Below the pieces are notes generated by a model. The model was not told the origin of the DNA. It was given only the letters and a program-made list of their open reading frames with translations, and searched no databases. A stretch of DNA of 64,000 nucleotides from positions 158,013 to 222,012 of the forward strand of contig NZ_KQ130456.1 in the NCBI RefSeq assembly GCF_001046635.1, given 5' to 3'. This DNA is from Novosphingobium barchaimii LL02. GTDB taxonomy: Bacteria; Pseudomonadota; Alphaproteobacteria; Sphingomonadales; Sphingomonadaceae. Made by a program: the position numbers and the translations under genes. Shown here piece after piece: positions 7,515-45,607 of this stretch. Position 1 is the first letter of the stretch. Each line of letters starts with the position of its first letter.

Positions 7515-7524
7515 CATTCTAGGA
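7515..7524 (-). promoter_or_regulatory. Flagellar operon motif upstream of flagellin (TCCTAGAATG)
   Basis: On the minus strand this reads TCCTAGAATG, one base from the element TCCTATAATG found before other flagellar operons here. It lies 92 nt upstream of the flagellin ATG. It could be a -10 element or an activator site; no standard -35 precedes it. Confidence 0.55.
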
Positions 7525-7586
7525 GGAGTCTTGGCGCGGCGGTTTTATCCTTGAAAAATTAGCTTCGGGTGCGACACCGAAAGGAC

Positions 7587-8363
7587 TCAGAACGGGAACA
7601 GGGCGTCGTAGATCTGCTGGCCCCAGCGGGCTTGCTGGGCGTCCGTAAGCTGGCCGCGTCCGCCGTAGCTGATGCGCGCTTCGGCGATCTGGCTGTGGCG
7701 GATGGAGTTGTCGCGGGCGATGTCCTCGGGGCGGATCACGCCCGAGACGACCAGTTCGCGCAGCTCGAAGTTGACCCGCACTTCCTGCTTGCCGCGGATC
7801 GCCAGGTTCCCGTTGGGCAAGACGCCGGTGACGGTGGCGGCGACGGTCATGTTGATCTGTTCCGAACGCGAGGTGTTGCCCGCGCCCACTGCGCTCGATT
7901 TCGAATTGGTGCTGGCAAGATTGGCGGGATCTGGGTTGCCCGGCAGCACTTTGCTGATCTGGCTTTCCAGCCCGAGCAGCGCGGCGATACCGCTGCTTTC
8001 GCTACCGTTGCGGGTGCGGGTGGTGGTGTTGGCGACCTGCGCGTTGTCAGCGATGTTGATGCGGATCGTGACGATATCGCCCACCCGCGAGGCGCGCTGG
8101 TCGCGGAAGAAGGCGCCGCCGCCGGTACGGAATAGCGAGGCACCCCGCGCGGCCTCTTCCGCCTGCGGATCGCCGCCGTCGGCCGTGCGGCCCGCCACGG
8201 AATGGTTGCCGAGCGAGGGTTCGAGGCGCGGGGCGACAGGCTCGCCCGCCTCGGTCAGCTTCGGCGCCTTGCCCACGTTCTTGAGGCGGCCAACCGAGCC
8301 GCAGCCGGCCAGCAGCGAAGCCGATGCCAGAAGGCAGGTAAATCCGGCGAAACGGGACTTCAT
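7587..8363 (-). CDS. flgH: Flagellar L-ring lipoprotein FlgH
   Basis: FlgH forms the outer-membrane L-ring around the flagellar rod. The 258-residue protein starts with a lipoprotein signal ending in the lipobox LLAGC, then a linker. The conserved ring domain has ASLFRTGGGAFFRDQRASRVGD-type sequence near the middle and a strand-rich C-terminus ending WGQQIYDALFPF. The ATG at 8363 is chosen because GAGGA lies 10 nt upstream and the signal peptide begins there; an ATG three codons earlier is too close to that site. It is the last gene of the flgF-flgG-flgA-flgH set on this strand. Confidence 0.95.
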   Translation of the reverse strand: MKSRFAGFTCLLASASLLAGCGSVGRLKNVGKAPKLTEAGEPVAPRLEPSLGNHSVAGRTADGGDPQAEEAARGASLFRTGGGAFFRDQRASRVGDIVTIRINIADNAQVANTTTRTRNGSESSGIAALLGLESQISKVLPGNPDPANLASTNSKSSAVGAGNTSRSEQINMTVAATVTGVLPNGNLAIRGKQEVRVNFELRELVVSGVIRPEDIARDNSIRHSQIAEARISYGGRGQLTDAQQARWGQQIYDALFPF

Positions 8364-8376
8364 TGGCAGCATTTCC

Positions 8377-8811
8377 TCAGGGCGCCTGTACGCGCACTTC
8401 GCCGGCGGCCAGGGCGACCCCCTCCAGCGTGCGGTTCGTGGCAAGGCTCATCACGCGCACCAGGTCGCCCCGGCCAGCATCGCTCAGCGCGCGGCCGGGC
8501 GCAGTGATCCGCAGGCCGCCCGAAACGAGGGAGATCGTCACCGTCTCGCCCCGGCGCACGACCCGCGCGGAAGTGAGGTCGCTCGCCCTTACCGGCGCGC
8601 CCGCGTTCAGGCGGCGGGTGGTTTCCTGGCCTGCCGCCTCGGCCGGGCTGAGCGCATTGCGGGCAACGGCGGGCAGCACCCGCGCGGTTTCGAAATCGGC
8701 TTTCGCGAGGACTTCGCCCCGCTCTACCGCACGCGCCAGAACCGGCGCGAACTCGGTCCCGGGTGCGGGCGTCGTCGCGGCGGCGACGGCAAGGAGCAGG
8801 GCGGCAAGCAT
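8377..8811 (-). CDS. flgA: P-ring assembly chaperone FlgA (short form, SAF domain)
   Basis: FlgA is a periplasmic chaperone needed to build the FlgI P-ring. The 144-residue protein has a hydrophobic signal at residues 1-14. An SAF-type domain follows, with GEVLAKADFETARV and LNAGAPVRASDL as the two characteristic segments, then a C-terminal beta region (RRGETVTISLVSGGLRIT). Short FlgA proteins lacking the N-terminal domain are common in alphaproteobacteria. It starts 4 nt after the flgG stop and is followed by flgH, so it is in the middle of the operon. Confidence 0.9.
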   Translation of the reverse strand: MLAALLLAVAAATTPAPGTEFAPVLARAVERGEVLAKADFETARVLPAVARNALSPAEAAGQETTRRLNAGAPVRASDLTSARVVRRGETVTISLVSGGLRITAPGRALSDAGRGDLVRVMSLATNRTLEGVALAAGEVRVQAP

Positions 8812-8815
8812 TGCG

Positions 8816-9601
8816 TCAGACCGTCTGGGTCGAGGTCTGCAGCATCTCGTCTGCGGTCTTGAGGACGCGGCTGTTCATCTCATACGCGCGCTGGGCGGTG
8901 ATGAGCGAGGTGATTTCCGACACCGGGTTGACGTTGGAAGCCTCGATAAAGCCCTGGCTCAGGGTGCCGAATGCGGGCTGGCCGGGGGTGGAGACATTGG
9001 GCTGGCCCGAAGCGCCGCTTTCCAGGAACAGGTTGGAGCCGATGGCCTCAAGGCCCGCCTCGTTGATGAAGGTGGCGAGTTCGAGCTGGCCCACGGTCTG
9101 CATTTCGGCCTGGCCCGCCAGCTTCACCTGCACTTCGCCGGTCTTCGAAACGGTGACGCTGAGCGCGCCCTGCGGGATGGTGATGTCCGGCTGCACGCGG
9201 TAGCCGTCGGTGGTCACCAGTTCGCCCTGGTCGGAAAGCTGGAACGAGCCGGCGCGGGTATAGCCGATATCGCCCGAGGGGAGCGAAACCTGGAAGTAGC
9301 CGGGGCCGTCGATCGCCATGTCATAGGCATTGCCGGTGCTGGTCAGGGCCCCCTGTTCGGTGATGCGGTAGACGCCGCCGGTCTTCACGCCGGCGCCGAT
9401 CTGGATGCCGGTAGGCACTTTGGTCCCGTCCGGGCTGGTTGCCGCGCCGGGCCGCGAGACCTGTTGGTAGAGCAGGTCCTCGAACTCCGCACGCTGGCGC
9501 TTGAAGCCAGTGGTGTTCATGTTGGCGATGTTGTTCGAGATGACGTCGACGTTGGTCTGCTGGGCAAGCATCCCGGTCGAGGCGATGGAGAGCGAACGCA
9601 T
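8816..9601 (-). CDS. flgG: Flagellar distal rod protein FlgG
   Basis: FlgG polymerises as the distal rod. The 261-residue protein carries the rod/hook N-terminal motif (TNVDVISNNIANMNTTGFK), a central D1 region with AYDMAIDGPGYFQV and YTRAGSF, and the C-terminal motif around NPVSEITSLITAQRAYEMNS. Length is normal for FlgG. AAGGAGT lies 5 nt before the ATG. It follows flgF by 47 nt on the same strand and precedes flgA closely. Confidence 0.97.
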   Translation of the reverse strand: MRSLSIASTGMLAQQTNVDVISNNIANMNTTGFKRQRAEFEDLLYQQVSRPGAATSPDGTKVPTGIQIGAGVKTGGVYRITEQGALTSTGNAYDMAIDGPGYFQVSLPSGDIGYTRAGSFQLSDQGELVTTDGYRVQPDITIPQGALSVTVSKTGEVQVKLAGQAEMQTVGQLELATFINEAGLEAIGSNLFLESGASGQPNVSTPGQPAFGTLSQGFIEASNVNPVSEITSLITAQRAYEMNSRVLKTADEMLQTSTQTV

Positions 9602-9648
9602 GGGGGACTCCTTCGTAAGGTTGGGGTGCTAGGGTCAGTCCAGATGAA

Positions 9649-10392
9649 TCAGGTGAGCTTGCTGAGGCGGCCGATGGCATTGCGGCGCATGTCGGCAAGG
9701 TCGGATGAAAGGCGCTGGCTGGTCTGGTAAGAGCGCAGAATCTCGACCATGTGTGTGGTTTCCGAAATCGCCTCGACGTTGGAGCCTTCGACGCCCCCGC
9801 TGCGCAGCTTGGTCTGGGCGGCGGTCATCATCTGGCCGCCGCTGCCGGTCAGCACCCCGTCGCCGCGCGCCTCCAGCATGTTCTCGTCCGCGAAGCTGGT
9901 GACGGCAAGGCGGCCCACGGCTTCCTCGCCCGCCATGACCGAGCCGTCCGGCGCGATGGTCAGGCTGCCGACCTGGTCTGTGGGAACGTTGATCGGCCGT
10001 CCGTTCTCGTCGAGCAGTCGCTGCCCGCCCGAAGTCGCCAGTTCCCCGGTGTCGAGCACCTTGATGAAGCCGGCGCGAGTGTAAGCGGTGGAACCGTCGG
10101 GAAGCTGCACGTTGAGGTAGCCCGGCCCGTCGATCATCACGTCAAGCGCGTTGCCGGTAGCCTGGAAGGCGCCTTGCGAAACGTCGTGGACAGCGCCGTA
10201 GTCGAGCACGAACGAGGTCTTGCGCGCATCCTGGACGGGCGCGTCCTGTGTGTTCTCGACATATTCGTGGAACAGCGCCTGTTCGCGCTTGTACCCCGTG
10301 GTCGAGACGTTCGCCATGTTGTTCGCGGCCACGTCCAACTGGCGGCGCAAGGCCTGCTCGTGGCTCAGCAGAACGAAGGAGGAGACGTCCAT
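9649..10392 (-). CDS. flgF: Flagellar proximal rod protein FlgF
   Basis: FlgF is a proximal rod subunit. The 247-residue protein has the rod motif LDVAANNMANVSTTGYKRE near residue 18, LDVMIDGPGYLNV near 85 and a C-terminal helix (EAISETTHMVEILRSYQTSQ). The ATG at 10392 is chosen because the conserved N-terminus begins there and AAGG lies about 8 nt upstream; the frame is open much further only because it runs antisense through fliL. It is the first gene of the minus-strand operon facing the palindromic motif at 10456. Confidence 0.95.
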   Translation of the reverse strand: MDVSSFVLLSHEQALRRQLDVAANNMANVSTTGYKREQALFHEYVENTQDAPVQDARKTSFVLDYGAVHDVSQGAFQATGNALDVMIDGPGYLNVQLPDGSTAYTRAGFIKVLDTGELATSGGQRLLDENGRPINVPTDQVGSLTIAPDGSVMAGEEAVGRLAVTSFADENMLEARGDGVLTGSGGQMMTAAQTKLRSGGVEGSNVEAISETTHMVEILRSYQTSQRLSSDLADMRRNAIGRLSKLT

Positions 10393-10455
10393 GGCGGCAC
10401 CTTGACGAAAAAGTTCGGTATAACCCGCCGGGAAGGGGACCCGACCGGGAAACAA

Positions 10456-10469
10456 TCCTATATATAGGA
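10456..10469. promoter_or_regulatory. Palindromic flagellar motif between flgF and fliL
   Basis: TCCTATATATAGGA is a perfect 14-bp palindrome in the 138-bp divergent gap between flgF and fliL. It combines two inverted copies of the TCCTATA element seen before other flagellar operons and could serve both directions. Confidence 0.6.
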
Positions 10470-10530
10470 ATGAAATCGTGCGCGCGGATGTGCGGGCAAG
10501 ATTTAATGGCCGGGTGTCAGGGGTGATTAC

Positions 10531-11082
10531 GTGTCCAGCGAGGTGATCGACGTTGCGCCGGTCGAGGTGTCCGAAGGGACAGCAGACGGCGCGGCCGCAG
10601 CAGCGAAGAAGAAGCGTGGCCGTCTGATCGCGATTGCCGTCGTGGTGGTCGGGATGCTCGCCGGTGCGGGCGGCGTCTGGTGGTACATGCAGGGCAGCGC
10701 CGGGCATGCGAAGCCGGAGACGGAAGCAGAAGCACCGGCTGAAACTTCCGGGCACGGTGGCACGGCGGACGCGGACCCTTCGGCAGCCTATATCGAGGTT
10801 CCGCCGATGATGGTGAACCTGCGCGGGGGCGGCGCCCAGGCCAAGTTCATCAAGCTGCGCTTCATCATCGTCGCCGCCGATGGCAAGACCGACGCCGTCA
10901 AGGCGCGCCTGCCGGTGATTCTCGATGCGCTGCAGCCCTTCCTGCGTGAACTGCGCCCCGACGACCTCAACGGCGCAGCGGCGGTGTTCAGAATCAAGGA
11001 AGAGATGCTGCGCCGCTCCACTCAGGCGCTGGGCGCGGGCATGGTGCGCGACGTGCTGATCCAGGATCTGATCCAGCAATGA
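10531..11082 (+). CDS. fliL: Flagellar basal body protein FliL
   Basis: FliL is an inner-membrane, single-span protein that forms rings around stator units. The 183-residue protein has a basic stretch (KKKRGR) and a membrane helix at about 30-52, then a disordered linker. The periplasmic FliL domain follows (IEVPPMMVNLRG, FIKLRFIIVA, LPVILDALQPFLREL). It starts with GTG at 10531, supported by AGGGGTG upstream. Its stop overlaps the fliM start as ATGA, so it is translationally coupled to the switch gene. Confidence 0.94.
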   Translation: MSSEVIDVAPVEVSEGTADGAAAAAKKKRGRLIAIAVVVVGMLAGAGGVWWYMQGSAGHAKPETEAEAPAETSGHGGTADADPSAAYIEVPPMMVNLRGGGAQAKFIKLRFIIVAADGKTDAVKARLPVILDALQPFLRELRPDDLNGAAAVFRIKEEMLRRSTQALGAGMVRDVLIQDLIQQ

Positions 11083-12056: not shown

Positions 12057-12565
12057 CCGCAGGACTGACTGCCGCCGCCGCGATCAACCTTGTCCTCGTG
12101 GCGGTGTGCCTGTGCGTGCTGGTGCAGAGCGTGCGCATGGACCGCCGCATCCGCACCTTGCGCGACAACAATCTGGGCGAAGCGGTATTCCGGCTGGACC
12201 GCGCAACCCAGCAGGCCCGGCTGGTGCTGGACGACCTGCGGTCCGTTCTCGCCAACGACGTTGCCGCGCGCGCGGAAGGCGCCGCTGCGGCCGAGGCTCT
12301 GCGTGAAGAACTGGCGATGATGGTCGATATCGGCAATTCGGTGGCTGAGAGGATATCGGACGCCGCCAGCGAGGCCCAGGCCGCAGAAGTGGCCGCAAGG
12401 TCGCGCAGCCCCCGGACCGCGCAGATCGAGGCTGCGGAAAGCCTTGCCGGGCAAGCCAGTCGGGCGAGCGCGGAAGCCCTGGCCTCCGCCCGGACCACGG
12501 AACTGAGCAGCAGGGTGTTCGACATCCTGTCCGCACACGTTCCGCGTGGCAGCGCCGTGGCATGA
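12053..12565 (+). CDS. DUF6468-like flagellar-cluster membrane protein
   Basis: The 170-residue protein has one N-terminal membrane helix (residues about 8-24), a conserved-looking segment MDRRIRTLRDNNLGEA, and then a long helical, probably coiled-coil part rich in Ala, Glu and Arg. This matches a family repeatedly found between fliM and the MotE-like gene in alphaproteobacterial flagellar clusters, which I recall as DUF6468. Its exact job is unknown. ATGA overlaps on both sides show coupling with fliM and the next gene. A motor accessory role is inferred from context only. Confidence 0.7.
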   Translation: MTAGLTAAAAINLVLVAVCLCVLVQSVRMDRRIRTLRDNNLGEAVFRLDRATQQARLVLDDLRSVLANDVAARAEGAAAAEALREELAMMVDIGNSVAERISDAASEAQAAEVAARSRSPRTAQIEAAESLAGQASRASAEALASARTTELSSRVFDILSAHVPRGSAVA

Positions 12566-13128: not shown

Positions 13129-13193
13129 GGCCAAGGCAGGCCGCAGGGTTAGATACGATCCGGCCAATCACCCGCACCCACCGGGCCGCGCCC

Positions 13194-13619
13194 TCACGCC
13201 TCCGTCGCGGAAACCTTCACGATCAGAACCTTGTCCACCGTAGCGTCCACCCGCTTGACCGGCTGAGTGATCGTTGCGGCAAGGCGTTCCACGTCCACCG
13301 GGGCGAAGCGCGAGGCACGCAGGCGGGCGAACTCGATCGTTGCGGGTAGCGCGGCGGCGCGCAGTTCGGGGATGCGCTTGGTCAGGGCGGCGGCCTCCTC
13401 TTCGGACTTGGCCTGTACCGTGATGGTGACGTGCAGCACGCCGTCCACCCGACCACCGTCGACGATCGGCGCGTCGATCGATTGCATCGCAACGAAGCTG
13501 GCGTCGGCTGGAGGCACTTCGGCGGCCTTGCGCGGCTCGGTGTTGGCGCCATGAACCGGCACCGCCGCCGCCAGCAGCAGTACCGCGGCAGCACGGCGAT
13601 AGGGGACGCAAGAGGGCAT
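13194..13619 (-). CDS. Predicted periplasmic protein in flagellar locus, unknown function
   Basis: The 141-residue protein has a clear signal peptide (RRAAAVLLLAAAVPVHG). The mature part is made mainly of strands and short helices, including GVLHVTITVQAKSEEEAAAL. There are no cysteines in the mature domain and no motif I recognise. The start at 13619 is supported by GGAG about 8 nt upstream. It faces the small membrane gene at 13705 across a copy of the flagellar motif, suggesting flagellar co-regulation. A basal-body or periplasmic accessory role is possible, from context only. Confidence 0.7.
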   Translation of the reverse strand: MPSCVPYRRAAAVLLLAAAVPVHGANTEPRKAAEVPPADASFVAMQSIDAPIVDGGRVDGVLHVTITVQAKSEEEAAALTKRIPELRAAALPATIEFARLRASRFAPVDVERLAATITQPVKRVDATVDKVLIVKVSATEA

Positions 13620-13667: not shown

Positions 13668-13680
13668 TTCTATAATAGGA
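13668..13680. promoter_or_regulatory. Near-palindromic flagellar motif in divergent gap
   Basis: TTCTATAATAGGA on the plus strand reads TCCTATTATAGAA on the minus strand. It is placed between the divergent genes starting at 13619 and 13705 and matches the TCCTATAAT element in both directions with one mismatch. Confidence 0.5.
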
Positions 13681-13704
13681 TGAAACTTAAGGAATCGCGT
13701 ACCA

Positions 13705-16706: not shown

Positions 16707-18800
16707 TCAGAGCATGTTCAGCAGGGTGTCGTACATCTGCGAGGCGGTGGTCATCACCCGCGCCGCGGCGGAATAGCTGTTTTGCAGCACCACCATTTGC
16801 GCAAGCTCCTCGTCGATATTGACGCCGGAGTAGGAATCGCGCCGGTTCACCGTATCGCTCAGGCGGGCCGAGGCATCGTCCGCGGCGGTCTTCGCCAGCG
16901 AGGCGGCAGAGCCTGCGCTGCCCAGCAGGCGGCTGGCGAAGCTGGAGATCGTGGAGCTGCCGTCCTTGCCGAAATCGGCGGTGGCGGCGAGCGCGTCGAC
17001 GAAGGCGTTGGCGCCCCGGATATCGCCCGCGCCGATCGCTTTCGTGCCGATCGCCGCGTCCAGCTGCAGCCGGGCCAGCGGCAGGCGCGTGGTATCGTTC
17101 AGGATCGCGGCGGGGACTTCGGCGGTACGCAGCCCGCTTGCCGCGCCGGTGAGGCCCGAGAGCGCGGAGAACGACAGGCCGGTGCCATTGCGATCCGTCG
17201 AATCCGAGGGGATCGATATCGTCGCCCCGGCGCTGGAGGACTTGGGTGTAAAGGCGACGCGGCCCCGCTCGTCGAGCGCGAAGCTGCCAAAGGCGCCCAG
17301 CGCGCCGGAATTCAGCGCGCCGACAAGTTCGCCCCAGGTCGAGCCGGTGTCCCCGCTCAGCGTCTGGGTGGCGAGCACTTTGCCGGCGGCGTCGCGCAGC
17401 ACGATCTGCGCGGTTTCGCCTGCGCCGAAGCCGTGGGGATCTTCGGCGGTGAAGCCGGAAGGGCCCAGCGCACTGTCGCCTGAACGGACAAGGTTGTTGA
17501 GGCCGAAGAACTGCGAAAATCCCACCCCGGCGCGGTCGCTCGGGGCATCGGCATCCTGCGCAACGGCGACGCCGTAAGCGCTCGACGTGGCGGCGATGGA
17601 CAGAACGCCGTCCTCGATGCTGGCGCTCGCCATGGGCGAGAGGCCGGCGTTGATCGCGGCCACCGCGTCATCCACCGTGGCGCCTGAACCCAGCTCGCCG
17701 AAATCGACGGTGGTTCTGGCCACCAGCGTGCCGTCCTTCGCCAGCACCGCGAACGTCGCCTTGCCGGTGAAGCCGAGCCGGTCGCTGCCGACCAACCCGT
17801 TGGCCTGCCCGGTCAGGGTCTGCGGCGGGGGCAGCGTGGTGCCCTCGTTGGAGACCTTGTTGAGTGTTTCAGCAAGGCCGCTGAACAACTGGCCCAGCTG
17901 CTCGGAGAAATTCGGCAGCGCGCGGTCGCGCATGTCGAGCAGGCCGCCCAGCTTGCCGCCGACGGCCGTGGAATCGATCTTCTCGCCGGTGGAAGCGCCC
18001 ATCGAACCATCGGCATTCGTGAAGCGGATGTCGATCGGGGCATAGCTCGCCTGGGAAACGGCGACCCCCGAGGCATAGTTCAACTGACGCAGGCGCTTGT
18101 CGAGCAGTACCTGGCCCGAGGCGGTGTCGATGGTGACGCGCCCGTCCGGCTGCTCGCGCACACTGACGTCGACCAGGCCGCTCAGTTCCTCCAGCGCCGA
18201 CATGCGCGAATCCGCCGGGCCGGACGTGGTGAGGCCGAGGCCCTGCAGGCGCGAGACTTCGTTGTTGAGATCGTGGATCTTGCTCAGCAGCACGTTGACC
18301 CGGCCGACCGTGTCCGAAACCTCGCTCTCGACATCCGCCTGCAGGTTGGCCACGTCGCCCTGCAATCCGCTCAGCGTATCGATCGTATCGGAAACGGTAC
18401 CCGTGAACTGGGCGATCGCCTCGGGCGAGCCTTGCAAGCCGGCGATCGCGGAAACCGAGCTGGAGATCGCCGTCAGCCGAGCCGCCAGTCCCGAATCACT
18501 GCTGGGCGAGCCAAGCAGCGACTGCAGGCGGTCGAGATAGTTGGACACCGCGTCCGTTCGCCCGGCCGTTCCCGCGCGCTGGTACACCGAGTTCTCGAGA
18601 AACTTGTCCGCCACACGCGCCGGTTCGCCGACGACCACGCCATTGACGTTGCCGCCCGCGACCGATGCGCTCTGCGCCAGCTTCTGCCGCGCATAGCCGG
18701 GGGTGTTGACGTTCGCGATGTTGGTCGAGACCGTCTGCATCCCGGCCTGCGAGGCCGAGAGCCCCGAAATGGCGGAACTGAGGATCGAGTTGATGGACAC
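16707..18800 (-). CDS. flgK: Hook-filament junction protein FlgK (HAP1)
   Basis: FlgK is the first junction protein on the hook tip. The N-terminus has the rod/hook motif (AGMQTVSTNIANVNTPGYARQ), and the C-terminus the matching helix (VNIDEELAQMVVLQNSYSAA). At 697 residues it is longer than the roughly 550 of enteric FlgK. The extra length is in the central surface region, which includes flagellin-type IN-motif segments (FAVLAKDGTLVARTTVDFGE). The start codon is GTG 18800 and the ribosome site is weak, so coupling to flgE 30 nt upstream is likely. Confidence 0.95.
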   Translation of the reverse strand: MSINSILSSAISGLSASQAGMQTVSTNIANVNTPGYARQKLAQSASVAGGNVNGVVVGEPARVADKFLENSVYQRAGTAGRTDAVSNYLDRLQSLLGSPSSDSGLAARLTAISSSVSAIAGLQGSPEAIAQFTGTVSDTIDTLSGLQGDVANLQADVESEVSDTVGRVNVLLSKIHDLNNEVSRLQGLGLTTSGPADSRMSALEELSGLVDVSVREQPDGRVTIDTASGQVLLDKRLRQLNYASGVAVSQASYAPIDIRFTNADGSMGASTGEKIDSTAVGGKLGGLLDMRDRALPNFSEQLGQLFSGLAETLNKVSNEGTTLPPPQTLTGQANGLVGSDRLGFTGKATFAVLAKDGTLVARTTVDFGELGSGATVDDAVAAINAGLSPMASASIEDGVLSIAATSSAYGVAVAQDADAPSDRAGVGFSQFFGLNNLVRSGDSALGPSGFTAEDPHGFGAGETAQIVLRDAAGKVLATQTLSGDTGSTWGELVGALNSGALGAFGSFALDERGRVAFTPKSSSAGATISIPSDSTDRNGTGLSFSALSGLTGAASGLRTAEVPAAILNDTTRLPLARLQLDAAIGTKAIGAGDIRGANAFVDALAATADFGKDGSSTISSFASRLLGSAGSAASLAKTAADDASARLSDTVNRRDSYSGVNIDEELAQMVVLQNSYSAAARVMTTASQMYDTLLNML

Positions 18801-18829
18801 GGGTCAGGCCGCCTTGATCGCCGCCGGGC

Positions 18830-20146
18830 TCAGCGCTTCAGGTTGCTCACTTCCTGGAGCATGTCGTCGACCGTGGTGATGATCTTGGACGAGGCCGAGT
18901 AGGCGCGCTGGAACAGGATCATGTTCGAGAACTCCGCCGCCAGATCGACGTTCGAGGCTTCGAGCATGCTGGCCGAAAGCGTGCCGCCGCCGACCGTGCC
19001 CGGCTCGTTGATGGCCACGTTGCCCGACTGTTCGGAAACGAGATAGGCATTGCCGCTGATGCGCGTCAGCCCGTCCGGGTTCTGGAAGGTTGCCAGCGGA
19101 AGCTGGTAGATCGGACGCGAGGTGCCATCGTCGAACACGGCGCTGACCACGCCCTTGTCGGAGATCTTCACCGAGGCAACCGTGCCCAGCATGCCGCCGT
19201 CGACGGTCGAGGACAGCAGCGCCGAAGTGCTGCCGAACTGGGTCAGCCCGTCGAGCCCGGCATTGCTGCCCATGTCGAGACTGATCGGGGTGGAGCCGGC
19301 GCCGTTGGACCAGGTGATGTCGAGATCGCCCAGCAGCGACTGCGCGGTACCCAGGTTGAGGCTGCCATCGGCATTGAAGCTGATCGTGCCGCTGGCAAGC
19401 AGGCCGGAAGCGGGGACGGCATTGCCGCCGCCGATGGTGGCGATCTCGGCCGGGTCGCCCGTCACTTCGGTGGCCCAGGTGTTCGCGCCGGTCTTGGCGA
19501 AGTTGAACGTCAGCGAGTGCGAGGTGCCCTGCGCGTCATAGACCACCACCGAGCGCGAGAACTGCGGGGAGAGAGTACCGTCGCTCATATCGCCTGCGGT
19601 GTAGCCGGTTACCGGCTCCGCAGTGGAATCGAGGTTCGCGCGCAGCTGGATAGCGGTGGTCGGGGTTGCCGCGCCGGTCAGCGCGTTGGGGCGGATCGGC
19701 TGCAACGATGCCTCGCTACCGTTGTTGACGTAGGAGCCCGTCGCATCGAGCGGCCAGCCCATCAGGTAATACCCGGCGGTGTTGCGCAGATAGCCCGAGG
19801 AATCCGTGGTGAACGATCCGGCGCGCGTGTAAGCGGTGGTGCCGCCCGCATCCGGGCTGGAGCGTACGACAAAGAAGCCCGAGCCGTCGATGCCGATATC
19901 GGTCAGGCTGCTCGATGCTTGGAGCAGGCCCTGCTTGGAAATCAGCGCCTTGGGCGTCGCGGTGACGCCGCCGGCGGAATAGCTGCTGCTCAGGCTGCCG
20001 CCCGTGACCAGCGTCTCGAACTGCGCGGAGACGCCCTTGTAGCCGATCGTGTTCACGTTGGTGATATTGTCCGCAACCGTTGCCATGGCGCTCGACTGCG
20101 CGCTGAGACCGGAAACGCCGGCGTAAAGAGCGGAATAGAGGCTCAT
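18830..20146 (-). CDS. flgE: Flagellar hook protein FlgE
   Basis: FlgE polymerises into the flexible hook. The 438-residue protein starts with YSALYAGVSGLSAQSSAMAT and the motif ADNITNVNTIGYKGV, contains the FlgE-type GSGFFVV and YTRAGSFTTDSSGYL segments, and ends with the C-terminal helix AAEFSNMILFQRAYSASSK. AGGAG lies 7 nt before the ATG at 20146; the frame continues upstream without a better start. It heads the flgE-flgK-flgL operon and is divergent from flbT, with separate motif copies facing each gene. Confidence 0.96.
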   Translation of the reverse strand: MSLYSALYAGVSGLSAQSSAMATVADNITNVNTIGYKGVSAQFETLVTGGSLSSSYSAGGVTATPKALISKQGLLQASSSLTDIGIDGSGFFVVRSSPDAGGTTAYTRAGSFTTDSSGYLRNTAGYYLMGWPLDATGSYVNNGSEASLQPIRPNALTGAATPTTAIQLRANLDSTAEPVTGYTAGDMSDGTLSPQFSRSVVVYDAQGTSHSLTFNFAKTGANTWATEVTGDPAEIATIGGGNAVPASGLLASGTISFNADGSLNLGTAQSLLGDLDITWSNGAGSTPISLDMGSNAGLDGLTQFGSTSALLSSTVDGGMLGTVASVKISDKGVVSAVFDDGTSRPIYQLPLATFQNPDGLTRISGNAYLVSEQSGNVAINEPGTVGGGTLSASMLEASNVDLAAEFSNMILFQRAYSASSKIITTVDDMLQEVSNLKR

Positions 20147-20200
20147 CTGTATTCTCCTGTGCGTGCGGACGGGCAGCAGCCTCGCGGGACCGGACACAGG

Positions 20201-20210
20201 CATTGTAGGA
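20201..20210 (-). promoter_or_regulatory. Flagellar operon motif upstream of flgE (TCCTACAATG)
   Basis: Read on the minus strand it is TCCTACAATG, a one-base variant of the element before flbT, 55 nt upstream of the flgE start. Confidence 0.55.
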
Positions 20211-20297
20211 AGAAATCTCATCCGCCGGTCCCTGCCCGCAGGAAAATGAAGGAGGCGGCAAAATTTGCCCACCTGCCGCGCGCGGACGCGTTTTTCA

Positions 20298-20307
20298 TCC
20301 TATAATG
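20298..20307 (+). promoter_or_regulatory. Flagellar operon motif upstream of flbT (TCCTATAATG)
   Basis: TCCTATAATG lies 30 nt before the flbT start. It is identical to the copies before flgI (33489) and fliF (45598). Confidence 0.6.
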
Positions 20308-20336
20308 CACGGGTCTAAAATAGGGCTGGGCTGGAC

Positions 20337-20765
20337 ATGACGCTTCGCATTTCGCTTCGCAACGGAGAGCCGGTGATCGTTAACGGCGCGGTCCTGCGCG
20401 CGGTCGGCCGCACCGATCTCGTCCTCGAAAACGAGGCGACGATCCTGCGCGGGCGCGAGGTGATGAAGCCGCAGGACGCCGATACTCCGGCTAAGCAGCT
20501 CTATTTCGCCTGCATGATGGCCTATATCGACCCGGCCGACATCGCCCGCCACCAGCAGACCCTGCTCCAACGCCTCGAAGCGCTGATGACGGCGCTGGAA
20601 TCGCCGGAAGCGAAGGGGGTATGCGTTCACTTCGCGCAGAAGGTCGCGACCGGCCAGTTCTATCAGGCACTGGCGGAATGCCGTTGGCTGATAGCCTATG
20701 AGGCCGATGCTCTGGCCCGCCTCCCCGCCGCGCAGCCCCCCGAAGCAACCACCCCCGCCGCCTGA
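20337..20765 (+). CDS. flbT: Flagellin synthesis repressor FlbT
   Basis: In Caulobacter, FlbT binds the 5' leader of flagellin mRNA and promotes its decay until the hook is complete. The 142-residue protein matches the family in length and in features such as LRISLRNGEPVIVNGAVLR, a strand-rich start, LYFACMMAYID in the middle, and a C-terminal helical region with FYQALAECRWLIAYE. It heads the flbT-fliI-fliJ-transglycosylase operon. The likely target is the two-hairpin leader of the flagellin gene at 7423-7510. Confidence 0.9.
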   Translation: MTLRISLRNGEPVIVNGAVLRAVGRTDLVLENEATILRGREVMKPQDADTPAKQLYFACMMAYIDPADIARHQQTLLQRLEALMTALESPEAKGVCVHFAQKVATGQFYQALAECRWLIAYEADALARLPAAQPPEATTPAA

Positions 20766-23557: not shown

Positions 23558-23817
23558 CGGGTGAGGCCCTACTTTTTTCGCGGGCCGGACCGGAACGCGA
23601 AATCCGCCTTGGCGATGAGCAAAAAAGCCTTTGATTGAAGGCAAACCGGGCCAACGCCCGGGCAAAATCCGACGCCCGCGACCGCACTGGCGCATCAGCA
23701 CGTCATCGCACGCTAGTGGATAACTCCGATATAGGATTGTTGGTTCCCAAATTATAGGAATAGATTCTCGTTTAGTGGACGTGGTGCAAGGGGCCCCGCG
23801 CGCCGCAGGGGTTCGTC
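23558..23817. promoter_or_regulatory. Intergenic region with two flagellar motif copies before the sigma factor gene
   Basis: The 260-bp gap holds ATATAGGA (23729-23736) and ATTATAGGA (23751-23759). These are inverted copies (TCCTATAT and TCCTATAAT on the minus strand) lying 82 and 59 nt upstream of the sigma factor start. They point the opposite way to the gene, unlike the copies before fliF and flbT. No tRNA or other RNA gene was recognised. Confidence 0.5.
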
Positions 23818-24708
23818 ATGTCTAAGATCACTGCCGCCCTCGAGGCATCAGTCGCGACGGTCAGGGACAACACGCCGCCGGAAGGCACTGCACAGACCCG
23901 CCGCCAGCGCGCCTGTGTCGATCATGCCTTTGCCCGGATTCTCAAGCTGATCGCGCCGCGTATCCGCCATTTCATCCGCCAGTACGGCCTTGCCGGGCAC
24001 TGGGACGATGCGGAGCAATGCTGCGCCATCGCCGTCCATCGCGCGATCCAAAGCTACGAGCCTGAAAAGGCCCAGTTCACGACCTTCGTGAACTGGCAAA
24101 TCCGCGGCGAACTGCAGAGCCTGCGCTTCCGCGTCATGACCGACCAGCGCCCGTCGGCCCGCAAGGTCGAGGCAACCACCGTCTCGCTCGACGCGATCAC
24201 CGGCGGCGAGGACGGCGAGGGCCTCTCGATCCTTTCCGCCATCGCCGACGAAGACGCGCTGGGTCGCACGGAGGCCGGGGCGTCCGACTACCTTGCCAAG
24301 GCGGCGATGAATGCGCTGACCGAAAGCTACGTCGAACATCTGCGCAATTCCGGCCTCGAACGCATTCGCCGCCGTGCCCACAACTCTCAGCCCAAACCGC
24401 TGAAGGTAAAGCGCCCCGACAACGCCTCCGCAGCGCCGCCAGTGCGTCGTCCGGGCCGCGCGCCCCTCGATCCGGCGGAATTGACGGAGTTGGAGCAGCG
24501 CCTCGAACACAACCGGCAGGTCGTCGAAGGCCGCCTTTTCGAAACCGCTCCGCCGCTCGATCTGGGCGAGGACGAAACCGGGCTGGCCCGCGAACGCGTG
24601 CGTCAGGTGGCCAAACGAGCAGCCAAGACCATGAGCGACCTTGCCGTGATGGACCCGCGCTTTTCGCTCATGGCCGAATACCGGCAGGCGATGCTCGCCG
24701 CGCACTGA
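23818..24708 (+). CDS. Atypical sigma70-family RNA polymerase sigma factor
   Basis: The 296-residue protein has a region-2-like part at about 30-110, with DHAFARILKLIAPRIRHFIR and HRAIQSYEPEKAQFTTFVNW then QIRGELQSLRFRVM. A variable middle contains a Pro/Arg linker. It ends in a region-4.2-like helix-turn-helix (DLGEDETGLARERVRQVAKRA, about 248-268). It lacks region 1.1. The sequence is not a typical FliA; region 4 is closer to the RpoH style. AGGGG precedes the ATG. Its position inside the flagellar block and the repeated motif around it make it the candidate for reading the flagellar promoters, though this is inferred. Confidence 0.78.
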   Translation: MSKITAALEASVATVRDNTPPEGTAQTRRQRACVDHAFARILKLIAPRIRHFIRQYGLAGHWDDAEQCCAIAVHRAIQSYEPEKAQFTTFVNWQIRGELQSLRFRVMTDQRPSARKVEATTVSLDAITGGEDGEGLSILSAIADEDALGRTEAGASDYLAKAAMNALTESYVEHLRNSGLERIRRRAHNSQPKPLKVKRPDNASAAPPVRRPGRAPLDPAELTELEQRLEHNRQVVEGRLFETAPPLDLGEDETGLARERVRQVAKRAAKTMSDLAVMDPRFSLMAEYRQAMLAAH

Positions 24709-25167: not shown

Positions 25168-25177
25168 TCATATAGGA
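25168..25177 (-). promoter_or_regulatory. Flagellar operon motif upstream of flaF
   Basis: Minus-strand TCCTATATGA, 63 nt before the flaF start, in the divergent flaF-motA gap. Confidence 0.45.
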
Positions 25178-25254: not shown

Positions 25255-25264
25255 TCCTATAACT
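25255..25264 (+). promoter_or_regulatory. Flagellar operon motif upstream of motA
   Basis: Plus-strand TCCTATAACT, 48 nt before the motA start, second copy in the same divergent gap. Confidence 0.5.
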
Positions 25265-29699: not shown

Positions 29700-29756
29700 A
29701 TTATAGGAAATAATTTATAGGAGCGATCCGCCACTAGGAAAAAATTGCCTATAAGG
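29700..29756. promoter_or_regulatory. Cluster of three flagellar motif copies between the fliN-type gene and flgC
   Basis: Minus-strand TCCTATAAT (complement of 29700-29708) and TCCTATAAA (complement of 29714-29722) face the fliN-fliO-fliP operon. Plus-strand GCCTATAAGG (29747-29756) faces flgC. It is the densest occurrence of the element in the window. Confidence 0.55.
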
Positions 29757-33488: not shown

Positions 33489-33498
33489 TCCTATAATG
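33489..33498 (+). promoter_or_regulatory. Flagellar operon motif overlapping the flgI start (TCCTATAATG)
   Basis: TCCTATAATG is the full consensus form of the motif. Its last three bases are the first possible ATG of flgI at 33496. If the motif is a -10 element, transcription would start near 33503-33505, at or just before the second in-frame ATG (33505). Confidence 0.6.
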
Positions 33499-34617: not shown

Positions 34618-34618
34618 C

Positions 34619-37469: not shown

Positions 37470-38627
37470 CTACTCGAACACGGCGGAGAGCACGGCGGCC
37501 ACGCAGGCGAGGTCCAGTGCGTCGATCGCAACTTCGAGGTCCGGGCTTTCGCTATAGCCCAGCATCCTGCCATGGCGGTCGGCGGCTACCGAGAGCACCC
37601 GCAGGCCGCCCTCCTCGCGGACGACGGCCAGGCCCCCGGTTGCGGGATAACGGTCGGGGTCGACGACCAGCGTTGCGCGCCCGGGCAGGCCGGCGCCCAG
37701 CGTGGGGCGGCCAAGGCGCAGGCCGTAAGCGCGCGGGCCAGCGCCGCGCGGGGCCTCGACTACGGCGCCGGTAGGCGTCTGGGCGATCAGGCCCTCAGGC
37801 AGCGGGGTGCCGAAAACGGGCAGCAGGCGGATTCGCGCGGTTCCCGCTTCGCTCTTAGCAGGTTGCTCAGCGGCCGTTTCGGCCAACGGTACGGGCTTTT
37901 CCGGGACCGGTGCCGCTTTGGCAGGCACGGCCAGTTCCTCATGCAGGGCGGCAATGCGGGTACGCGACTTGGCAAGGCGGATTTCGGGGTTGGCGACCAG
38001 CGGCAGCACCGAGGCAAGGTCGCCTCGCGCGTGCATCGCTTCAACCTGGGCCGCCAGCGCCGCGTCGTCGGCCGCGCCGAACAGACGGCGCAGGGCGGCG
38101 CGCACATCCTCGTTCCAGCGACCTAGCGGCTTCAGGGCGTTCTCGATGCGCGACAGCACGACCGGGGCGATACCGTAGTCCTGTTCCAGCACAGCGATCG
38201 TCAGTGCCGGATCACCGCCGCGGCGCGCGCGCAGGGCGGCAGCCAGCAGGACCGCGCCAAGTTCTTCTTCTGCATCGGCAGGAGCGGCGCCGTGAAGCGG
38301 TTCGGCCCATGCGCCAATATCGAAGGCGGGGTCATCCACATCGACCAGCAGGTCGTCCGGCTCGACGCCCAGCGCCTTGCCCAGCGCGCGCAGTTCGTCG
38401 GCACGGGCGAAGATCTCTCCCCGCTCGATCTTGGAGAGGCGGATATAAGTGATCGTCGGGAGCCGCTCCGACAGTTCGAGCAGCGAGCCGATATTGAGTT
38501 GCTTACGGAACTTGCGAATACGGTTCGGGAAGACCAGAGCGCGATGGCAATCGATCTCAGTCAAGGCAGTGCCCGTTACTTGTTCCTGCGCGGGTTGCAG
38601 CCGTAACTTTGGCGATTTCTCGCTCAT
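37470..38627 (-). CDS. Double-HTH XRE-family regulator in flagellar locus
   Basis: The 385-residue protein has an XRE-type HTH at about 30-90 (RIRKFRKQLNIGSLLELSER, TYIRLSKIERGEIFA). A second XRE-like segment follows near 143-185 (LTIAVLEQDYGIAPVVLSRI), then a charged linker. The C-terminal strand-rich domain (ATLVVDPDRYPATGGLAVVR to GRMLGYSE) resembles a LexA/S24-type fold without an obvious catalytic pair. It is a candidate regulator of this locus. Confidence 0.72.
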   Translation of the reverse strand: MSEKSPKLRLQPAQEQVTGTALTEIDCHRALVFPNRIRKFRKQLNIGSLLELSERLPTITYIRLSKIERGEIFARADELRALGKALGVEPDDLLVDVDDPAFDIGAWAEPLHGAAPADAEEELGAVLLAAALRARRGGDPALTIAVLEQDYGIAPVVLSRIENALKPLGRWNEDVRAALRRLFGAADDAALAAQVEAMHARGDLASVLPLVANPEIRLAKSRTRIAALHEELAVPAKAAPVPEKPVPLAETAAEQPAKSEAGTARIRLLPVFGTPLPEGLIAQTPTGAVVEAPRGAGPRAYGLRLGRPTLGAGLPGRATLVVDPDRYPATGGLAVVREEGGLRVLSVAADRHGRMLGYSESPDLEVAIDALDLACVAAVLSAVFE

Positions 38628-42226: not shown

Positions 42227-42259
42227 TTGTGCCTCCTGGGCCGGTTGCGCGGGTGTTCC

Positions 42260-42276
42260 TCCTATAAATAGAAGGA
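42260..42276. promoter_or_regulatory. Flagellar motif between the 901-aa gene and fliG
   Basis: TCCTATAAATAGAAGGA contains the element on the plus strand (toward fliG) and an imperfect inverted copy on the minus strand (TCCTTCTATTTATAGGA). It is 49 nt from fliG's first start and 34 nt from the opposing start. Another partial copy, TCCTATC, is inside the start of the 901-aa gene (about 42194). Confidence 0.5.
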
Positions 42277-42324
42277 ACTCTCCGGGATCGGATTGAATCG
42301 GACAATTTTCGAAGGGTCTCGCAG

Positions 42325-43359
42325 GTGAACATGATGACCGCGGTGGGCGAACCACCGGAGCTCAAGAAGTACTCGGGCCTCCAGCGCGCGGCCGCGCTGC
42401 TGCTGGCGCTGGGTCAGGAGCACGGCATCCCGATCTGGCAGCAACTGAGCGACGAGGAGATCAAGGAGCTTTCGGGCAGCATCTCCCAGCTCGGCCGCGT
42501 GCCTGCCGTCGTCGTGGAATATCTGCTGGCCCAGTTCTCGGGCGAGGTGTCCAGCATCACCACGCTGCACGGCTCCTACGAGACGACCGAGCGCCTGCTT
42601 GAAGGCGTGCTTGCGCCCGATAAGGTCAAGGACATCATGGAGGACATCCGCGGTCCTTCGGGCCGCACGATGTGGGACAAGCTCTCCAATGTCAGCGAGG
42701 GCGTGCTGGCCGGCTATCTCAAGAGCGAGCACCCGCAGACCGTGGCGGTGATCCTGCAGAAGCTGAAGCCCGACCATGCCGCGCGCGTGCTGGCATCGCT
42801 GCCGCGCGACTTCGGCACTGAAGTGGTGATGCGGATGCTCAAGACGGAGACGGTGCAGAAGGACGTCATCGTCCAGGTCGAGCAAACGCTCAAGACCGAG
42901 TTCATGACCAACCTCTCGCGCTCGCAGCGCCGCGATCCGCACGAGAGTATGGCCGAATTGTTCAACGCGCTCGACCGGTCGACCGAGGAAGACATGCTTG
43001 GCGCGCTGGACGAACGCGCGCCCGAAGCGGCGGAGCGTATTCGCGGCCTCATGTTCACCTTCGAGGATCTGGGCAACCTGCTGCCCTCCGCGATCCAGGT
43101 GATCGTGCGCAACTGCAACAAGCGCGAACTGGCGCTGGCGCTCAAGGGATCGCCGGAGGAAATGAAGAAGCTGTTCTTCGGCGCCATGACCGAACGCGCG
43201 GCCAAGCTGATGCGCGACGACATGCAGGCGATGGGTCCGGTGCGCGCACGCGAATGCGAAGCGGCTCAGGGCAACCTGGTGCGCCTCGCCAAGGAACTGG
43301 GCGAACGCGGCGAGATCATGCTGGCGGACCCCAAGAGCGACGATGCGATGATCTACTGA
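42325..43359 (+). CDS. fliG: Flagellar motor switch protein FliG
   Basis: FliG links the C-ring to the MS-ring and stators. The 344-residue protein has the N-terminal part with LQRAAALLLALGQEHGIPIW, the middle domain (EHPQTVAVILQKLKPDHAAR, LPRDFGTEVVMRMLKTETVQ) and the C-terminal torque domain with MFTFEDLGNLLPSAIQVIVR. GAAGGG lies 8 nt before GTG 42325; ATG at 42331 or 42334 are alternatives. It heads fliG-fliH. Confidence 0.96.
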   Translation: MNMMTAVGEPPELKKYSGLQRAAALLLALGQEHGIPIWQQLSDEEIKELSGSISQLGRVPAVVVEYLLAQFSGEVSSITTLHGSYETTERLLEGVLAPDKVKDIMEDIRGPSGRTMWDKLSNVSEGVLAGYLKSEHPQTVAVILQKLKPDHAARVLASLPRDFGTEVVMRMLKTETVQKDVIVQVEQTLKTEFMTNLSRSQRRDPHESMAELFNALDRSTEEDMLGALDERAPEAAERIRGLMFTFEDLGNLLPSAIQVIVRNCNKRELALALKGSPEEMKKLFFGAMTERAAKLMRDDMQAMGPVRARECEAAQGNLVRLAKELGERGEIMLADPKSDDAMIY

Positions 43360-43370
43360 TGGGGTCTTGA

Positions 43371-44072
43371 GTGAAGGCAGCAATGGACGGCTTTGCGACG
43401 ATACAGCCATTCGGCTTCGACCGGGTGTTCCAGCTTGTGGACACCCATGCGCCGGAACCGCAGGCGGCCGGGGAAGCCGGGCTTGTCCTGCCGCCTGAGG
43501 ATCTTCACGAAAAGGTGGCTGAACTGGAAGCGCGGATCGAGCGCCTTCACGCAGACCACTGCGCCGAACTGACCCGCGCCCGCGCCGATGGTTTCGAGGC
43601 GGGGGCCACACAGGCCCGCTCCGAACGAGCCGAGGCGCTGCTTTCGGCCACCGACGCGCTCCATGCGGGGCTGGGCGACATTGATGCCCGTTTCGACGCG
43701 GCTGCGCGCGCCATGCTGGCAGAAGCCGGCGCCGTCGTCCTGCACGCCGCGCAGCTACTCGCTGGCCACGCTATCGACGCGGCGCCCGCGCGCGCCGTGG
43801 ATGAAGCGCTGGGCCGCGCGCTTGAACAGGTGGCACAGGGAACCGCGATGGTGGTGCGCGCCAACCCCGCGATGCGCGCTGAGATCGAGGCGCTGGTCGC
43901 CGAACGCAGAGCCCGGGCAGGACGCAATCTGGCGGTTACTGTGGTGGATGACGCAGGGGTGCCGGAAGGCGACGCGCGGATCGAATGGAGCGCGGGCGGC
44001 CTCAACGTCGATGCCGAGGCGCGGCGGGCAGCGGTGATGGCGGAACTGGACGGTACGCTGGGCGCCGCATAG
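43371..44072 (+). CDS. fliH: Flagellar export regulator FliH
   Basis: FliH binds FliI and links it to the C-ring via FliN. The 233-residue protein has a helical, charged N-terminus (LHEKVAELEARIERLHADHC) and repeated Ala/Glu-rich helices. The C-terminal domain has the family-like VRANPAMRAEIEALVAERRA and GDARIEWSAGGLNVD. The GTG at 43371 is the first possible start; ATG 43383 is an alternative. It directly follows fliG, as in other flagellar clusters, though fliI is at 20824. Confidence 0.9.
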   Translation: MKAAMDGFATIQPFGFDRVFQLVDTHAPEPQAAGEAGLVLPPEDLHEKVAELEARIERLHADHCAELTRARADGFEAGATQARSERAEALLSATDALHAGLGDIDARFDAAARAMLAEAGAVVLHAAQLLAGHAIDAAPARAVDEALGRALEQVAQGTAMVVRANPAMRAEIEALVAERRARAGRNLAVTVVDDAGVPEGDARIEWSAGGLNVDAEARRAAVMAELDGTLGAA

Positions 44073-44612
44073 ACGCCTGATGTGGGCGCTCTGATCCGCA
44101 ATTGCAGGGTATTGATACGCAAAGGGCCTTCTTTGCGGATAATCCCGGTAATTCAATGCATATCTGAGAATCACCACAAGCAGCGCTAAAGACGCTATCG
44201 GACAAATTCTTCAAATTATTTGAAAATCTGATGCAGGTTCTTTCTCAACACACACCCCTTGCGCCTTTCGGAACAACTGGCTGCCAATTGAGGTAGCGTC
44301 AGCAAATTTCACCTGATAATTCTACCCAGGCATCAGCGTCGGTGTGGGGCGGCCTGCATCGGTTCACCGCACGATCCACTCGAATTAGCCTGACAGCCAC
44401 CTGTGTTACGGGGGGTGTTCATGTATCCGCAAGGTTGGGGTGAACACGCAGGACGTCCATGATGTTCAGGTTCAGGTGCAGCTCCATGCCGCACTTCTCA
44501 TGAAGCCAGATGGAGGGGTTCCGACAGCCCGATACGCCCTCCCGGCGGCGGCAGTTGGACGACAAGCTGCGATCTCGCAGGCCCGACAGGTCGAGTTTGA
44601 AGGAGTAGCCCA
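44073..44612. other. Long intergenic region before the OmpA-like gene
   Basis: This 540-bp region is AT-richer in its first 200 bp and probably carries the OmpA-like gene promoter, though no clear -10/-35 pair was fixed. A possible short frame, 44500-44616 (38 codons), ends inside the OmpA-like ATG (ATGAG) but has no obvious ribosome site. No copy of the flagellar motif was found. Confidence 0.35.
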
Positions 44613-45494
44613 ATGAGTGTCATTTCCCAGAGCCCCCGCGTTCTTTTGATGGTAGCCTTGCTTGCCGGCACGGCGGCGGGCACCGTGTCCGCGCAGACGC
44701 AGGATTCGTCCGATAGCGGCCTCGCGGTCACCGTTTCCGACACCAGCCCCACCGACCGGTCCGCGATGACCGAAGGCCCCGAAGTGAAGGGCATCATTTC
44801 CGCACGCAGCGGCGCCAAGGTGCAAGTCACTTCCGACGACGGCAACCGCACCGTCGTCACCGTCGACGATGCCACCAAGATCACCGCCAGCAAGGGCCTG
44901 TTCGGCATGGGCAGCAACAAGCTGGCGGCAACCTCGTTGCTCAACGGCCTGCCGGTGACCATCAAGACGCTGCAAGGCGGCGGCACCCTGCTGGCGAGCG
45001 AGATCAAGCTGCAGAACAAGGATCTCAAGACCGCCACCATGATCCGCAACGGCACCGACCAGGGCTTTGCCGAACAGACGGCGGCCACCGAAGCGCTGCG
45101 CGGCCGAATGGGCGATATCGGCAAGTACAATATCAAGGGCACGACCAACGTGAACTTCGATACCGGCAAATATGCCCTGTCCCCAGAGGCTAAGCAGAGC
45201 CTTTGCGCGGCTGCTTCGAGCGCCGAGGGCATGGACAACGCCCTGCTGCTCGTCGTGGGTTACACCGATTCCACCGGCAACCCGGAATTCAACCAGGTGC
45301 TCAGCGAAAAGCGGGCCGGCGGCGTCGTCAACTTCCTCCAGCAGGCCTGCCACTGGAAGCCCTACCGGATGCTGACCCCCACCGGTATGTCCGAAGCTGA
45401 CCCGCTGGCGGACAACACCACCGAAGAAGGCAAGGCACAGAACCGCCGCGTCGCGGTCAACATTCTGGTCAGCAAGGGCCTCGACGGGCTGTAA
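44613..45494 (+). CDS. OmpA-family exported protein
   Basis: The 293-residue protein has a signal peptide (VLLMVALLAGTAAGTVSAQ). A strand-rich N-terminal part contains RSGAKVQVTSDDGNRTVVTV. The C-terminal OmpA-like peptidoglycan-binding domain shows INFDTGKY-type TNVNFDTGKYALS near 165, LLLVVGYTDSTGNPEFNQVL and NRRVAVNILV. AAGGAG precedes the ATG. It lies between fliH and fliF but has its own hairpin terminator. Its role is probably envelope anchoring; no link to motility is proven. Confidence 0.85.
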   Translation: MSVISQSPRVLLMVALLAGTAAGTVSAQTQDSSDSGLAVTVSDTSPTDRSAMTEGPEVKGIISARSGAKVQVTSDDGNRTVVTVDDATKITASKGLFGMGSNKLAATSLLNGLPVTIKTLQGGGTLLASEIKLQNKDLKTATMIRNGTDQGFAEQTAATEALRGRMGDIGKYNIKGTTNVNFDTGKYALSPEAKQSLCAAASSAEGMDNALLLVVGYTDSTGNPEFNQVLSEKRAGGVVNFLQQACHWKPYRMLTPTGMSEADPLADNTTEEGKAQNRRVAVNILVSKGLDGL

Positions 45495-45504
45495 GGCGTC
45501 TGGG

Positions 45505-45537
45505 GGCGGGTTCAACCCGCCCTCACCTTCCGTTTTT
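45505..45537 (+). terminator. Terminator of the OmpA-like gene
   Basis: GGCGGG (45505-45510) and CCCGCC (45516-45521) form a 6-bp stem with a 5-nt loop just after the stop at 45494. A T-run (45533-45537) follows about 12 nt later, which is more distant than usual. Confidence 0.5.
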
Positions 45538-45539
45538 CC

Positions 45540-45587
45540 GCAAGACTTGCCGGGCGACAGATTTTTCCATCGCCCGGCAAGTCTTGC
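45540..45587. repeat. Perfect 18-bp inverted repeat upstream of fliF
   Basis: GCAAGACTTGCCGGGCGA (45540-45557) and its exact complement TCGCCCGGCAAGTCTTGC (45570-45587) flank a 12-nt loop. The right arm ends 10 nt before the fliF motif at 45598. It may terminate the upstream gene, act as an operator for fliF, or do both. Confidence 0.85.
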
Positions 45588-45597
45588 CTAGTTCTTA

Positions 45598-45607
45598 TCC
45601 TATAATG
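45598..45607 (+). promoter_or_regulatory. Flagellar operon motif upstream of fliF (TCCTATAATG)
   Basis: Full consensus copy, 49 nt before the fliF TTG start and 10 nt after the 18-bp inverted repeat. Confidence 0.6.

Follow-up and report, generated by a model that had tools for sequence, protein, structure and literature searches.

The flagellar cluster and its recurring element

The stretch analyzed here, the window, comprises 64,000 nucleotides of Novosphingobium barchaimii LL02 (contig NZ_KQ130456.1, positions 158,013 to 222,012), and contains a flagellar gene cluster of 45.9 kb. Here and in related sphingomonads a short signal, TCCTATAAT, stands ahead of many flagellar gene units (the TCCTATAA units). 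The core of the motif is CCTATAA, and its 7-mer family is more over-represented than any other in the intergenic DNA of the cluster. Gene names were taken from NCBIfam and Pfam, and the starts were re-read by eye because several of the listed open reading frames (ORFs) begin upstream of the conserved N-terminus (flgF, flgE, flaF, the weakly FliL-like gene and orf39521). The copies of the element are listed here with a second, palindromic element and the regulatory genes of the cluster.

7515..7524, minus: TCCTAGAATG, ahead of the flagellin gene fliC (ATG 7422); weak, partly conserved
10456..10469, either strand: palindrome TCCTATATATAGGA, between flgF (ATG 10392, minus) and the FliL-like gene (10531, plus) preceding fliM; read as overlapping -10 elements for both directions
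13668..13681, either strand: near-palindrome TTCTATAATAGGAT; the plus copy faces orf13956, and the minus copy, TCCTATTATA, faces the gene at 13194-13619 (weak FliL similarity)
20201..20210, minus: TCCTACAATG, ahead of flgE (start read as ATG 20146)
20255..20271, either strand: second element, palindrome GCGGCAAAATTTGCCCA, between flgE and flbT
20298..20307, plus: TCCTATAATG, ahead of flbT (ATG 20337)
23730..23736, minus: inverted copy (TATAGGA on the plus strand), ahead of the sigma gene
23751..23759, minus: a further inverted copy (reading TCCTATAAT on the minus strand), ahead of the sigma gene
23818..24708, plus: divergent sigma70-family protein, the best candidate reader of the element
25168..25177, minus: TCCTATATGA, ahead of flaF (start read as ATG 25105); low-scoring
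25255..25264, plus: TCCTATAACT, ahead of motA (ATG 25312)
29700..29708, minus: TCCTATAAT, ahead of the FliN-like gene (GTG 29677) of the fliN-fliO-fliP unit
29714..29722, minus: TCCTATAAA, second tandem copy ahead of the fliN-fliO-fliP unit
29735..29751, either strand: second element, TAGGAAAAAATTGCCTA, overlapping the flgC copy
29747..29756, plus: GCCTATAAGG, ahead of flgC-fliE
33489..33498, plus: TCCTATAATG, ahead of flgI; ATG 33505 lies exactly 7 nt past the hexamer, and a further ATG, 33496, within the motif
37470..38627, minus: XRE-type (HTH_3) regulator; genomes that have it tend to have the inverted copies ahead of the sigma gene
42260..42273, either strand: near-palindrome TCCTATAAATAGAA, between fliG (plus, 42325) and orf39521 (minus)
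45574..45590, either strand: second element, CCGGCAAGTCTTGCCTA, upstream of the fliF copy
45598..45607, plus: TCCTATAATG, ahead of fliF-fliN-flbD
47618..48088, plus: FlbD-like protein of 156 aa with the DNA-binding C-terminus of FlbD; likely reader of the second element

Every copy noted in the initial annotation is present at its position, and the decamer that it described as identical before flbT, flgI and fliF, TCCTATAATG, occurs exactly at 20298, 33489 and 45598 on the plus strand. Allowing up to one mismatch there are 8 matches in the window, where 0.43 would be expected from 100 shuffles. For finer scoring a weight matrix was built from 193 upstream regions at 48 loci of other genomes, with TTCCTATAATG as seed and the top-scoring match of each region; the window and loci L007 and L008 were left out. 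Across the 45.9 kb of the cluster this matrix finds 13 sites of at least 12 bits; 60 dinucleotide shuffles average 0.83 and never exceed 3. The most enriched 7-mer in the 4.7 kb of cluster intergenic DNA is TCCTATA (12 occurrences versus 0.25 expected). All 13 strong matrix matches are intergenic on the re-read gene map, which rests on starts placed by eye with the motif already known; if the longest ORFs are used, 4 of the 13 fall within ORF starts. Ahead of the hexamer the matrix has a nearly invariant CC (82% and 99%), and the last base of the hexamer varies (T 38%, G 38%). Two of the listed places, 10456 (the palindrome) and 25168, score weakly, at 8-10.5 bits.

It had been proposed that the element precedes nearly every flagellar operon. 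This is true of half of the gaps of at least 60 bp, with a copy of at least 8 bits in 10 of 20; none is found in the other 10, which include fliE-fliR, flbD-flhA and the gaps upstream of the OmpA-domain gene and the XRE gene. The accompanying remark that none was noticed in the accessory island (1-6.4 kb) or the 52-64 kb genes stands but for one sequence, GCCTATAATG at 53440-53449 on the minus strand. This sole strong copy outside the cluster lies within a DUF2779 gene, and appears to be a chance occurrence of the GCCTATAA type, which background DNA shows as well.

Conservation among sphingomonads

A scan for FlgI gave 80 loci, 50 of them sphingomonad by title. An element of at least 12 bits precedes flgI in 49 of those 50 (window excluded), with the remaining locus scoring 11.6, and in none of the 30 other alphaproteobacterial loci, where the best score is 6.8. 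With the window included, the strict pattern and the matrix at 11 bits or more both find the element at flgI in 51/51 loci and at fliF in 31/33. At the other well-conserved positions the pattern and the matrix give, respectively, 38/39 and 39/39 for fliG, 16/41 and 38/41 for flgC, 24/38 and 37/38 upstream of fliO, and 5/6 and 6/6 for motA. The variants found before flgC and fliN in many genomes (TACAAT, TATTAT, TATGAT, TAGAAT and TATAAC) alter the middle or the end of the hexamer, and T1, A2 and A5 are kept, in the manner of -10 elements. By the matrix flgE (4/5), flaF (6/16 loci, some of them duplicates) and flgF (1/5, the others at 9.4-10.5) are less conserved. The fliC copy is only partly conserved: of the four loci with this type of cluster, the window and L245 alone reach 11 bits, and in L022 and L246 the position is occupied by TTCCCATGATG, with a score of 6.3.

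A plasmid record of Sphingobium sp. V4, from outside the matrix, has copies ahead of flaF, motA, fliN, flgC and flgI. In this record (unnamed1, locus L250) a portion of the same flagellar cluster, promoter elements included, is carried by a plasmid of 1.25 Mb that is typed as conjugative. Another partial flagellar cluster is found at 17075-20676 of locus L014, where a frame fuses fliF to the end of fliK and is followed by a ParB-like gene (named by eye). The genome concerned is without the sigma gene and a matching FlhA, and the promoter elements are still there.

We measured specificity on a relative, Sphingomonas sp. IC081 (genome G001, locus L008). Its 60-kb flagellar cluster has 16 matches of at least 12 bits, and evenly spaced background totalling 400 kb has 10; at 16 bits or more there are 8 in the cluster and 0 in the background. 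A second, different flagellar locus in this genome (FlgI 43% identical) has no match of at least 8 bits in 20 kb. Six genomes (about 29 Mb) contain 20 exact copies of TCCTATAAG, 11 of them within flagellar loci. The count of this sequence per genome was tried as a marker of the cluster and rejected, giving no separation, with at least one occurrence in 112 of 149 genomes; for this sequence location is informative and count is not. Equal frequency in non-flagellar DNA and lack of conservation at orthologous operons, which the initial annotation had named as findings that would refute its reading, were looked for in relatives and gave no refutation, although the fliC and flaF copies are only partly conserved. 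We conclude that the element defines a real, sphingomonad-specific flagellar promoter class.

Promoter-like features and candidate regulators

The copies face the gene that they precede; when the flgI regions are read on the other strand just 1 of 50 gives a match. The ATG of flgI lies exactly 7 nt past the hexamer in 20 of 51 loci, 34-39 nt past it in 25, and elsewhere in 6; among the 20 are 7 with a GTG, TTG or ATG three bases earlier. In sequence, orientation and distance to the ATG the element thus has the character of a -10 hexamer (T1 A2 ... A5), gene-facing and at a short fixed distance. On this comparative sequence evidence it is likely to be a promoter element of the -10 type, preceded directly by a fixed CC. 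Of the two roles originally proposed, a locus-specific -10 or an activator site, orientation, ATG spacing, the hexamer variants, the restriction to sphingomonads and the lack of a regular -35, sigma54 or CtrA site favor the former. The common discriminator is 6 bp long, according to section 5 of PMC8407463 and part of PMC7566282, and with it the 7-nt spacing predicts a leaderless flgI mRNA. Transcription start data have been published for N. aromaticivorans and Z. mobilis (PMC7471390, PMC7566282).

No regular -35 accompanies the element, as had been noted from the window. A TTG-type -35 at spacers of 15-19 is present at 2 of 159 distinct sites, where composition predicts about 8; control offsets gave about 21, a value inflated by the TTGCC of the palindrome described below. 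A CTTG at the spacing of promoters of the heat-shock sigma factor RpoH (21-22 nt upstream of the CC) is found at 0 of 159 sites. For both counts, sites with identical last 35 upstream bases were treated as one. Promoters of the sigma54, CtrA and RpoH types were all tested and set aside, in agreement with the initial view that the element is unlike sigma54 and CtrA sites. The promoter gaps contain no sigma54 -24/-12 sequence (GG-N10-GC); the window has 8 matches at 11/13 or better, 2 of them in the cluster and both inside genes. RpoN is present in 30 of 30 genomes searched. The CtrA site TTAA-N7-TTAA has 0 matches in the window even with one mismatch.

Sequence profiles, together with the predicted fold of domain 2, identify the product of 23818-24708 as a sigma factor, with a recognizable region 2. 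In structure comparison all 50 of the matches listed were sigma factors or RNA polymerase complexes. For region 4, the Pfam model matches 14 of 25 family members, the window protein not among them, and the family profile aligns with region 4 of RpoS at 1.3e-5. The FliA/WhiG family cut-off of 189.6 is not reached, with 18.5 bits for the window sigma and 27.9 for that of L110. The sigma gene tracks this cluster type across genomes. In an order-wide sample it is present in 9 of 147 genomes, and some FlgI in 111 of 147; this sample is too broad for co-occurrence, and a family-wide one was used instead. We think it somewhat more probable than the contrary that the cluster sigma reads the element. 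The sigma gene of Alteriqipengyuania abyssalis (L118) has an in-frame TAG after 93 codons.

The second conserved element is a 17-bp palindrome, TAGGCAA-N3-TTGCCTA. Of 264 distinct element sites, 104 have it no more than about 110 nt upstream, with its center mostly about 7, 18-25 or 36-40 nt upstream of the hexamer. A strict pattern for it shows little overall enrichment (10.0 versus 8.0 per 100 kb); a refined 17-bp matrix, started from 16 boxes picked by eye, does show enrichment, with 6 matches of at least 13 bits in 60 kb versus 5 in 400 kb. The FlbD of the window (156 aa, encoded after fliN) covers only positions 388-448 of the 454 of the FlbD profile. Pfam gives only HTH_8 in this protein, and no AAA+ domain, the part required to activate sigma54, was found. 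Seven related genomes of the Novosphingobium/Sphingobium type, and also G020 and G024, give alignments that begin close to the first residue of the short FlbD. In 15 other genomes only the C-terminus of FlbD aligns, and 13 of the 15 have frames of at least 390 codons, consistent with a full-length FlbD. The palindrome is probably an FlbD (ftr-like) site, and the GGCAA-N3-TTGCC palindrome taken with an FlbD without AAA+ domain suggests FlbD input at some promoters.

Readers of the element and known flagellar systems

The hexamer TATAAT might instead be a -10 read by the housekeeping sigma factor RpoD, at -35-less promoters depending on an activator such as FlbD. Alphaproteobacterial housekeeping -10 elements have no fixed base at -7 (section 5 of PMC8407463 and part of PMC7566282) and the element varies there too; moreover it is retained in genome G011, which is without the sigma gene. 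The near-fixed CC ahead of the hexamer, the absence of strong matches from the G001 background, the rarity of TTG at -35 and the tracking of the cluster by the sigma gene all make a role for RpoD unlikely. A further candidate reading is an RpoH promoter element. The RpoH1 and RpoH2 promoters are given in part of PMC4843759, quoting Barnett 2012, as CTTGAA-N15-16-CCTATAT and CTTGCC-N15-16-CCTATCT. Their -10 core CCTATA is that of the present element, although the last base usually differs, and RpoH can be aligned with the cluster sigma over regions 2 and 4 (2.3-2.4 and 4.2). Here, however, the promoters lack the CTTG and belong to a flagellar cluster, and the score of the sigma is 16.9 bits, where the RpoH cut-off is 323.1; we regard recognition by RpoH itself as very improbable.

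The copies could also form an operator over or near the promoters, most plausibly for the XRE-type protein encoded at 37470-38627, which has no NCBIfam match. Some copies are palindromic, and the copies before the sigma gene, whose inversion had been correctly reported and is conserved, do not fit a plain -10 role. These inverted copies lie about 60-130 nt ahead of the sigma gene in 16 of 24 genomes, and the next upstream gene, where matched, is on the same strand. The regulator is found in 18 of 26 sphingomonad genomes searched, and follows the sigma gene within about 2.4 kb at 9 of 27 sigma loci (with short flanks). Of the 18 genomes that have the regulator, 16 carry an inverted TCCTATA no more than 150 nt ahead of the sigma gene, and none of the 6 that lack it does (Fisher 2e-4); G248, outside this count, has both. 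Against an operator, G023, one of the six without the regulator, still has a looser inverted TCCTATTAGG. On the tree there are just 5 regulator changes; in 4 independent pairs the traits go together in 2-3 and are never opposite, and the median p of 0.25 is not significant. The XRE protein was set aside as main reader because the flgI element persists where its gene is absent (6/6 genomes). The gene-facing copies, the fixed flgI ATG spacing and the -10-like variable positions favor a -10 over an operator, which we consider distinctly improbable as an account of the element. The inverted copies themselves are a lead to an operator of the XRE regulator, or to self-feedback by the sigma factor.

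On balance we favor, with moderate confidence, a -10 core read by the cluster sigma together with FlbD-type activators. In such a mechanism a flagellar regulon of sphingomonads would have TCCTATAAT/G as its -10-type core promoter, consisting of a TATAAT/G hexamer and a near-fixed CC with no regular -35. Region 2 of the cluster sigma would recognize CC-TATAA, and upstream activators would replace weak region 4 contacts; at some promoters the activator would probably be the DNA-binding protein FlbD, acting on GGCAA-N3-TTGCC palindromes. Where genes diverge, palindromic copies in the gap would serve as overlapping -10 elements for both directions, and transcription might start about 7 nt downstream. 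A more elaborate arrangement is possible but doubtful. A dedicated RpoH-like sigma would act on -35-less CC-TATAA promoters, the FlbD of the Novosphingobium/Sphingobium branch would have lost its sigma54-activating AAA+ domain and be a plain DNA-binding co-regulator, and the XRE protein would control the sigma gene via the inverted copies. The poor coverage of the late gene fliC lowers its likelihood.

Flagellar promoters of sigma28/FliA have the form TAAA...GCCGATAA. They resemble the present ones in having a flagellum-linked sigma and a CC just upstream of an ATAA-like core, but here there is no -35, the basal-body genes are covered best and fliC weakly, and the sigma falls far short of the FliA cut-off. 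With the Caulobacter CtrA-sigma54/FlbD hierarchy and its ftr sites, as presented in part of PMC3930126, the cluster shares an flbD between fliN and flhA and a palindromic box at some promoters; it differs in that the window has no CtrA match, the -24/-12-like matches of the cluster are only in genes, and no AAA+ domain was found in FlbD. For Sphingomonas sp. WG, the portion of the transcriptome paper considered (PMC8921679) gives no fliA in the flagellar clusters and assumes a Caulobacter-like CtrA-FlbD hierarchy. Azospirillum RpoE6 is likewise an alternative sigma encoded among alphaproteobacterial flagellar genes, but it is described in part of PMC12826043 as an extracytoplasmic function (ECF) sigma for a minor flagellin, and serves that gene and metabolic genes, not basal-body operons. 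RpoE10 is named in the literature for the lateral flagella of Azospirillum. Another flagellum-linked sigma, an exceptional case, is the FliA of Rhodobacter sphaeroides.

The cluster sigma is uncharacterised and little studied, and a regulon of this type, under an alternative sigma, is already known as a kind. The titles and abstract openings of part of the matches in the open-licence full-text literature gave no report of the element or the cluster sigma. The conserved element and the linked sigma offer a different, testable answer to flagellar control in a large group of environmental bacteria, possibly a sigma regulon without a -35 element. Weaker relatives of the sigma occur outside flagellar clusters in genomes of the same family (L190, L191, L192, L194 and L195), which we regard as a paralogous sigma family; several of them adjoin large efflux-pump-like or electron-transfer-like genes, named by eye.

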